A DNA stretch of 64,000 bases from Gimesia benthica. Its GTDB lineage: Bacteria; Planctomycetota; Planctomycetia; Planctomycetales; Planctomycetaceae. The position numbers and the translations under genes were made by a program. Under the pieces are notes generated by a model. That model did no database searches and was not told where the DNA came from. It saw nothing but the letters and a program-made list of their open reading frames with translations. Positions within the stretch are counted from its first letter, which is position 1. The number at the start of each line of letters is the position of its first letter. The stretch is from contig NZ_CP043930.1 of the NCBI RefSeq assembly GCF_009720525.1, positions 3,194,501-3,258,500 on the forward strand. The letters are read 5' to 3'. Below, one piece after another: positions 23,756 through 26,101 of the stretch.

Positions 23756-26101
23756 TTAATACATGAGAAATCTGGCCCGCCGGACGCCGAACTCTGCCAG
23801 ATCCTGCTGGTAGCCAGAGCGGATCTGCATCAGAGACTCTCCCTGCAGCACAGCATCAAAGACACGCTGATTTCCCAGCAGTCGATTGAAATTCCGTGTC
23901 TCCCACTCCTGAGGGAAATGTTTCCTTAACTGGATGGCAATCTCCAGGCCGGTCTGCACGGGTTGAAACTGCTCCCGGTCGGTGACAATAAAATTCACAC
24001 CACCACACAGTTCCCCGGAAAATTTACTCGATTCCGGAGTGAACTCAACCGGCACAAATCGTACGCCCGGCAATCCCGACCGATTCAACGCTTCAGCCAG
24101 CTGCATGCCTTTCAGCCAGGGAGCCCCGATCCATTCGAAGGGTGTATCGGTTCCACGTCCGACTGACAGATTCGTCGTCTCCAGTAAACCGATACCGGGA
24201 TACAGGACGGCCTGATTCAAACTCCGCATATTGGGCGACGGGTTGACCCAGGTCAGCCCGGTCTCGTCGTAATACATGTCCCGCTTCCAGTTTTGCAGCT
24301 TGATGACCTGCAGGTCGGCGCCGATCTGCATTTCCGTATTGAACATCCGGGCCAGTTCGCCCGCAGTCATGCCATGACGCACGGGTATGCGGTGGTAACC
24401 TACAAACGATTGAGCTCCTTCGTCCAGCACGGGTCCTGCGTAATCGACGCCATTAATCGGGTTCGGCCGATCCAGTACAATAAATTTGATGCCCTGCTGT
24501 TTCGCAGCCCGCATCGCATTTCCCATGGTAGAGATATACGTATAAAACCGCGCCCCGATATCCTGGATGTCGAACACCAGTGCATCCAGATCCTGCAGAC
24601 TTTCCGGCGTAGGCGTTCGCGTTTTGCCGTACAGACTGAAGATTTTCAGTCCTGTGCTCGCGTCAGTAGAATCGCCGATTTTCGACACGTCCAGTTTACC
24701 GGCAAAGCCATGTTCGGGACTGAAGAGGGTTTTCAACTGCACCTGTGGTGCGTCATTGAGAACCTGCACCGTACTCTCCCCTTCGCGGGTGAGCCCGGTA
24801 TGATTCGTGATCAGGCCAATGCGTTTTCCATTTAATGACTTGAACTGCTCCCGCTTCAGGACATCAATTCCGGTCAGCACATCCAGTCTGGCTTTTGACG
24901 CAACTTTGACTTCCGCTGTCGCTGCCGATTGTCCGGTAATCGCCGCAGCGGCAATCGTGCCAATCCGTCCCGCCAGAGAATTGACGGAGCCTTTCCCGTC
25001 GGGGTGAACTCGGTTGCTGAGAAAAATCACGAACAGGTCCTGGGCGGGATCCATCCAGATTGCAGTCCCCGTGAATCCGCCATGCCCGAACGCACGTGGG
25101 GAAAACAGGTCTCCCCGGTTCGAAGAATAACGCGACAGGCTGTCCCAGCCCAGGCCTCGAATGTCATCGACGACAGGATAGCCCCGCGTCATGAGATCGA
25201 TCGTTTCTGGTTTCAGAACGCGGGTACCATCAAGGCTCCCCTGATTCAACATCATCTGGGCGTAAACCGCCAGATCTTCGGCAGTCGAAAACAGGCCCGC
25301 ATGCCCGGCAACGCCTCCGAGTCGATAAGCACGCGGATCATGAACTTCACCCTGCATCCAGTGTCCGTCCCGTTCCTGCGTTGTCGCGGCCCGCTGTTTC
25401 AGGTCGTCTGCCGGCAGGTACCCGGTTTCCTGCATCCCCAGCGGCTGGAATACGTTTTTCTGAGAAAACTCATGCACCGAATCTCCGCTGATTCGTTTCA
25501 CAATATCTCCCAGGAGGATGAAGCCGACATCGGTGTAGGCAAACCGTGTTCCCGGTTCGTAGTAGAGATTGAGATCATAGATCTTCTGCATCGCAGTCTC
25601 AGGACCATCCAGATAATCTTTGATGGAGTTATCCGGGATCAGGCCTCCCTGATGGGTCAGCAGCTGATAGATGGTGATATCCTGCTTGCCATTGGCGGCA
25701 AACTCCGGGATGTATTTCGATACTGGATCACTGAGCTTCAGCTTCCCCTGCTCGACCAGCTTCATCACGCTGGTCGCGGTTGCGATCGGTTTCGTCAGGG
25801 AGGCCAGGTCAAAGACGGTATCGGTCGTCATAGCCCGTTTTTCAGGTTTCACCTGACGATAGCCGTAAGCTTTAAGGAAAACAATTTTGGCCTTGTACCC
25901 CACGAGTACCACGGCTCCGGGCATCGAATCTCGCGCCAGACCACGCTCGACGACAAAGTCAATCTCAGACAACCTTTGGGGGTTCATCCCCACTGCTGCT
26001 GCCTGAGCGTGCGGCAGTCGGGTTGGTTCAGCCGAGCGGACCTCGGGAAGACTTGCTGACAGAAACAGGAGACAGGTGATAAACAGGATAAAATGTTTCA
26101 T
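23756..26101 (-). CDS. Fused serine hydrolase (AmiE/beta-lactamase-like) and NamZ exo-muramidase (DUF1343)
   Basis: A 781-residue exported protein (signal MKHFILFITCLLFLSASLPEVRSA) with two catalytic halves. Residues about 30-390 are a class C beta-lactamase-type serine hydrolase: S101-L-T-K104, Y189-T-D, and HGG at 340-342. Residues about 405-781 are DUF1343, shown in Bacillus to be NamZ, an exo-beta-N-acetylmuramidase; key stretches are GKRIGLITNHTG, LFSPEHGFAG, FDIQDIGARFYTYISTM and LDRPNPING. In Bacillus amiE and namZ are separate adjacent genes, so this is a fusion. The enzyme would strip peptide and MurNAc from muropeptides. SD GGAG before ATG. nadE lies 51 nt upstream. Confidence 0.93.
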   Translation of the reverse strand: MKHFILFITCLLFLSASLPEVRSAEPTRLPHAQAAAVGMNPQRLSEIDFVVERGLARDSMPGAVVLVGYKAKIVFLKAYGYRQVKPEKRAMTTDTVFDLASLTKPIATATSVMKLVEQGKLKLSDPVSKYIPEFAANGKQDITIYQLLTHQGGLIPDNSIKDYLDGPETAMQKIYDLNLYYEPGTRFAYTDVGFILLGDIVKRISGDSVHEFSQKNVFQPLGMQETGYLPADDLKQRAATTQERDGHWMQGEVHDPRAYRLGGVAGHAGLFSTAEDLAVYAQMMLNQGSLDGTRVLKPETIDLMTRGYPVVDDIRGLGWDSLSRYSSNRGDLFSPRAFGHGGFTGTAIWMDPAQDLFVIFLSNRVHPDGKGSVNSLAGRIGTIAAAAITGQSAATAEVKVASKARLDVLTGIDVLKREQFKSLNGKRIGLITNHTGLTREGESTVQVLNDAPQVQLKTLFSPEHGFAGKLDVSKIGDSTDASTGLKIFSLYGKTRTPTPESLQDLDALVFDIQDIGARFYTYISTMGNAMRAAKQQGIKFIVLDRPNPINGVDYAGPVLDEGAQSFVGYHRIPVRHGMTAGELARMFNTEMQIGADLQVIKLQNWKRDMYYDETGLTWVNPSPNMRSLNQAVLYPGIGLLETTNLSVGRGTDTPFEWIGAPWLKGMQLAEALNRSGLPGVRFVPVEFTPESSKFSGELCGGVNFIVTDREQFQPVQTGLEIAIQLRKHFPQEWETRNFNRLLGNQRVFDAVLQGESLMQIRSGYQQDLAEFGVRRARFLMY

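Follow-up and report, generated by a model that had tools for sequence, protein, structure and literature searches.

A single gene of Gimesia benthica appears to encode both a serine hydrolase and an exo-muramidase, raising the questions of whether the join is real and intact and what the two halves do together. In Bacillus subtilis, AmiE and NamZ carry out peptide removal and release of N-acetylmuramic acid (MurNAc) as separate proteins. The gene is in a window of 64,000 nucleotides (NZ_CP043930.1, positions 3,194,501 to 3,258,500), which is the whole stretch of DNA that was analyzed. A sequence-only reading of this window proposed that one exported polypeptide carries an AmiE-type hydrolase and an intact NamZ (DUF1343) and trims peptidoglycan fragments in two steps.

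The presence of both enzymes in one polypeptide is borne out by the open reading frame, by Pfam, and by the sampled genomes of the genus, in which the fusion is present in 10 of 10. The gene (23756..26101, stop codon included; this and all features below are on the minus strand) is uninterrupted, starts with ATG, and encodes a 781-aa PF00144 serine hydrolase–NamZ exo-muramidase fusion. Its N-terminus (MKHFILFITCLLFLSASLPEVRSAEP...) is hydrophobic and signal-like when read by eye (aa 1–24, 26030..26101) and unstructured in the predicted model (pLDDT <50 across aa 1–22), and the protein is predicted to be exported. The Beta-lactamase domain PF00144, with a class C/family VIII fold, spans aa 50–371 (24989..25954) and matches far above the cut-off (E 7e-75). 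A flexible linker (aa 392–404, 24890..24928; pLDDT <50) separates it from NamZ. NamZ_N (PF07075), the Rossmann-like half, spans aa 428–628 (24218..24820) and covers profile positions 1–202 of 203 (E 1.9e-87; 292 bits against a cut-off of 26.9). NamZ_C (PF20732) spans aa 632–781 (23759..24208) and covers profile positions 1–152 of 152 (E 1.1e-48; 166 bits against a cut-off of 25). These three domain assignments are based on Pfam, AlphaFold2, and structure comparison. With both NamZ domains at full or near-full length and core residues kept, DUF1343 is intact. A frame error or misassembly was ruled out because all 10 sampled genus genomes, and ∼100 loci in total, have both domains in a single frame.

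Residues of both active sites are conserved without exception in an alignment of 80 fusion proteins that are 45–80% identical to that of G. benthica. The motifs expected of an AmiE-type enzyme with the PF00144 fold, S-x-x-K, Y-x-(N/D/S), and (K/H)-x-G, are all present in the N-terminal half. The catalytic motif S101-L-T-K104 (25790..25801) is at the position first reported for it, and its S and K are invariant across the 80 proteins. So are Y189 and D191 of the second class C motif, Y189-T-D191 in the Y-x-D form (25529..25537), and H340 and G342 of the third, H340-G-G342 in the H-x-G form (25076..25084), in which residue 341 is variable. In the NamZ half, the invariant residues are E463, H464, R518, D544, R545, N547, W618, and E641, the first two within the motif S461-P-E463-H464-G465 (24707..24721). 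Residues E463, H464, R518, D544, R545, N547, and E641 align to the same residues in two solved structures, 4k05 and 4jja; the SPEHG motif is also in 4jja, and 4k05 has P-E-H-G.

The predicted structure is consistent with two folded enzymes. The AlphaFold2 model has a mean pLDDT of 91, with disorder only in the signal region and linker. The NamZ half superimposes on 4k05 with a TM score of 0.91 on target length (rmsd 2.1) and on 4jja with 0.87 on target length. These structures are BF0371 and BF0379 of Bacteroides fragilis, respectively, which have the same NamZ fold and the PEHG and DRPNP motifs but are stand-alone proteins, whereas the NamZ of G. benthica is fused. The hydrolase half matches EstG (7uda; TM 0.76) and AmpC (TM ∼0.8), and family VIII esterases also match. 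A structure prediction in which either half lacks its pocket would have told against the fusion being bifunctional; in the model, both halves are predicted to fold, the motifs are present, and neither pocket appears lost. The pTM of 0.58 leaves it uncertain how the two halves sit relative to each other, so substrate channeling between them is only a possibility.

Gene context is the new contribution of this analysis and the strongest new evidence for function. In G. benthica, murK, murQ, and a symporter gene adjoin one another ∼50 kb from the fusion. In nine of ten genus members, the fusion and murQ are on one contig, about 46–60 kb apart, and in the tenth they are on separate draft contigs. 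The G. benthica MurQ scores about 404.5–404.9 bits against an equivalog cut-off of 302. The kinase encoded next to it is BadF-type (PF01869), and its best solved relative is 8zo3 (E 5e-43), an N-acetylmuramic acid/N-acetylglucosamine kinase. The adjacent transporter is of the sodium symporter family (PF00474, TIGR00813), with MurNAc as its putative substrate. Closer to the fusion, its neighbors in the window, named by eye, are polyphosphate kinase 2-like, NAD synthetase-like, and TatC-like, and no pathway link to them was seen.

Outside the genus, 62 fusion loci have at least 2.5 kb of upstream sequence. Among these, a symporter is encoded in 29, MurQ in 29, MurK in 26, and all three in 22; in 25 of 62, the sodium:solute symporter gene is directly upstream of the fusion on the same strand. 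A common arrangement in Planctomycetota has murK and murQ divergent from the symporter gene and the fusion, often with a second namZ following. Symporter, MurQ, and kinase families also top an unsupervised clustering of fusion neighbors. Verrucomicrobial and most acidobacterial fusion loci in the survey are without a murTKQ cluster. Across the class, 19 genomes have both NamZ and MurQ, one has MurQ only, none has NamZ only, and 20 have neither (Fisher p 3e-10, which ignores kinship and is a guide only). At the sequence level, genes of the symporter, kinase, and MurQ families are present in G. benthica, and in related lineages they adjoin the fusion; their substrates are predicted. In one genome of the same family (G105), MurK and MurQ matches are in a single 648-aa frame (L114:5394-7337), suggestive of a fused kinase–etherase, and several other MurQ frames are also ∼600–770 aa long.

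Two-step trimming, in the setting of MurNAc salvage, holds as the best reading because both halves are complete and because of the position of the hydrolase half in the PF00144 tree and the MurNAc kinase, MurQ, and symporter that neighbor fusions. One part of the sequence-only reading that is not supported is the identity of the N-terminal half as an amidase, which had been assumed. We consider it probable that the fusion is an exported bifunctional MurNAc salvage enzyme that feeds uptake and MurT–MurK–MurQ catabolism. Outside the inner membrane, the N-terminal hydrolase, acting through acylation of S101, would be an AmiE-like MurNAc-L-Ala amidase that removes the stem peptide carried by a terminal MurNAc. 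The NamZ domain, going by its family and conserved core, would then cut the β-1,4 bond and free the terminal MurNAc from the next N-acetylglucosamine (GlcNAc). Free MurNAc could enter by the MurT-like sodium:solute symporter and be phosphorylated by the BadF-type, MurK-like kinase, and MurQ would yield GlcNAc-6P and lactate. Against this proposal, the fusion in the genus is not beside murTKQ.

The proposed pathway resembles known systems in part. The amiE-nagZ-namZ genes of B. subtilis (ybbE-ybbD-ybbC), with murQRP, provide the two activities proposed for the fusion, which trim muropeptides one after the other starting at the non-reducing end, but as separate genes with the PTS transporter MurP and NagZ, whereas G. 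benthica has a fusion, a sodium symporter, and no GH3 found. In Tannerella forsythia, ybbC, a member of the NamZ family described there as a "conserved hypothetical protein," is directly upstream of murTKQ, and MurT belongs to the sodium symporter superfamily (PMC5388701, PMC5790795). That operon, namZ(ybbC)-murT-murK-murQ, clusters a NamZ family gene with a sodium-symporter-type MurNAc transporter, a kinase, and MurQ, as in the loci related to that of G. benthica. The operon's gene list names no PF00144 hydrolase, which in G. benthica is fused to NamZ.

The resemblance to T. forsythia bears on whose peptidoglycan is digested. That the enzyme scavenges the peptidoglycan of other bacteria as food, as opposed to recycling the cell's own wall, has a nearly even chance of being correct. 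The catabolic cluster of symporter, kinase, and etherase is like the MurNAc-scavenging cluster of T. forsythia. AnmK was not found in the G. benthica genome, and anhydro-MurNAc, the usual product of lytic transglycosylases acting on a cell's own wall, would not enter the route. NamZ is also patchy in the family, present in 13 of 28 genomes, but patchiness is compatible with both uses and sequence does not distinguish self from foreign peptidoglycan. Scavenging is compatible with the MurNAc salvage proposal and the two are not exclusive.

The weakest step of the salvage proposal is that the N-terminal half is a MurNAc-L-Ala amidase, because its superfamily covers several functions and the curated model nearest to it, PBP4B, scores below cut-off. 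Esterases, D,D-peptidases, acyltransferases, and amidases all belong to this superfamily, and sequence and fold do not separate them. The half could instead be a D,D-carboxypeptidase/endopeptidase of the PBP4B kind, or some other enzyme that trims peptides or removes esters, with only NamZ releasing MurNAc; the fusion would then join peptide editing and sugar release in no strict order. PBP4B (NF002968) is the best curated NCBIfam match at 203 bits, though below the cut-off of 385, and class C beta-lactamase (NF033085) was rejected with 76 bits, far below its cut-off of 415. In a PF00144 tree whose rows do not include B. subtilis AmiE, the fused halves are nearest to PBP4B of Salmonella and Priestia and to the hydrolase domain of a Parabacteroides protein in which PF00144 is fused to NagZ, and the other PF00144 proteins of G. 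benthica are far from the fusion half. The Salmonella and Priestia proteins also have motifs in common with the fusion (Y-S-D, G-V-x-G-H-A-G-L-F-S, and G-H-x-G-x-T-G-T). Three observations argue against a PBP4B-like role, which we regard as unlikely. The genes associated with the fusion point to MurNAc catabolism, and this requires that the peptide be removed from the lactyl group of MurNAc. B. subtilis AmiE, of the same superfamily, works at the MurNAc–peptide step. Lastly, in Bacteroidota, a PF00144-type domain is also joined to a peptidoglycan-type exo-hexosaminidase, as would suit an exo-amidase partner, in the RmNag3-type GH3 N-acetylglucosaminidase of Rhodothermus; there the partner is NagZ and the hydrolase is C-terminal, whereas in G. 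benthica the partner is NamZ and the hydrolase is N-terminal (PMC6987092). The amidase–muramidase reading predicts that MurNAc release from muropeptides requires both active sites.

The architecture had been implied to be rare, but it is widespread across phyla and had been recorded before. A scan with one genome per species recovered 80 loci, nearly all with full-length matches, in Planctomycetota, Acidobacteriota, Verrucomicrobiota, Myxococcota, and Pseudomonadota bins; fusion loci in all number ∼100 in several phyla and also occur on plasmids of Burkholderia and Cupriavidus. Public annotation labels the proteins by either one domain or the other. The accessible part of a 2008 survey of serine proteases lists PF00144-DUF1343 (DDPept-DUF1343) for one protein, YP_439122.1, with both domain families in one chain and in the same order as printed; the survey predates the function of DUF1343, and in that part we found no role, gene context, or analysis of spread (PMC2605481). 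The fusion is real, intact, and functionally sensible, and its architecture was already known.

Phylogenies of the two halves are consistent with a shared origin. In the PF00144 tree, the halves from 48 fused rows all fall on the same side of a single branch (support 92/88). In the NamZ tree, the 48 fused rows are in one clade (98/91) with seven stand-alone NamZ copies, whose "alone" status was set by a phmmer cut-off that a very degenerate hydrolase half could escape. The fusion is not peculiar to the G. benthica genome and is probably inherited across the phylum. As the trees are most simply read, the two domains joined once, long ago; some lineages later lost the hydrolase, and some copies moved from one phylum to another. 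Stand-alone NamZ nested in the fused clade without a hydrolase implies that coupling is dispensable. This loss is what could be expected of a chance join of functionally uncoupled halves, one of them vestigial, yet such a join is very improbable given that both active sites are invariant across 80 diverse fusions and that the fusion is kept across phyla, with a single clade (92/88) uniting its PF00144 halves.

Other forms of NamZ proteins were observed among the fusion loci. A second, stand-alone paralog is often downstream of the fusion (L032, L035, L036, L038, L043, L051, L055, L063, L102, and L114) and forms a separate clade in the NamZ tree (100/99); a search of the G. benthica genome found no second NamZ. 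Two fusions (L111:2615-6781 and L112:8434-12156) are extended at the N-terminus by several hundred residues that carry FG-GAP-like repeats. A triple fusion with NagZ was considered and rejected, as long frames (943–1389 aa) bear only FG-GAP repeats or no extra N-terminal Pfam domain. On plasmids of Burkholderia savannae (L143:5844-10217) and Cupriavidus metallidurans (L144:5755-10193), the fusion is 3′ of genes for a polysaccharide deacetylase and a DUF4015 protein, and the latter, a putative glycosyl hydrolase on both plasmids, is a possible partner enzyme.

Since the combination of domains is not new, interest lies in its function and in a missing NagZ. The gene had been likened to the Bacillus triad of amiE, nagZ, and namZ, but the triad is incomplete in G. 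benthica. A profile search for GH3 NagZ (PF00933) was positive in 10 of 14 control genomes and found none in the G. benthica genome, nor did the GH3 matches include any of the class's 19 genomes that carry NamZ. GH20, GH73, and AnmK were likewise not found in the G. benthica genome, with control genomes positive for each. With no GH3, GH20, or GH73 found, an exo-enzyme working inward from the non-reducing end would halt at GlcNAc once it had removed one MurNAc. Either a hexosaminidase of another family acts, or MurNAc-ended fragments are made otherwise, or one sugar is taken per end. Tentatively, planctomycetes may have a NagZ-independent route in which the fused exo-enzyme removes MurNAc at the ends of peptidoglycan to supply the symporter, kinase, and etherase, with MurNAc ends coming from an unrecognized glucosaminidase or from none. 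The prediction is that a NagZ-like step is supplied by another enzyme or is unnecessary, and how digestion continues without NagZ is the question of most interest.

Through the fusion, the NamZ family would be physically linked to the enzyme of the step before its own, and both would be connected with the uptake and catabolism of MurNAc in Planctomycetota. We found no recycling route described for this phylum in the literature searched. The fusion had also been set against a long dispute over planctomycete peptidoglycan; that dispute was settled in 2015 (PMC4432640), so the fusion gene does not bear on it.

Separate genes for similar enzymes were observed together in haloarchaea. A plasmid of Halorussus limi has a cluster encoding AnmK, Amidase_2, a PF00144 hydrolase, a stand-alone NamZ, and a GH3 NagZ (L142:4625-13188). 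Archaea make no peptidoglycan, and the cluster is apparently a peptidoglycan-salvage set. Similar plasmids occur in other Halorussus and in Haladaptatus.
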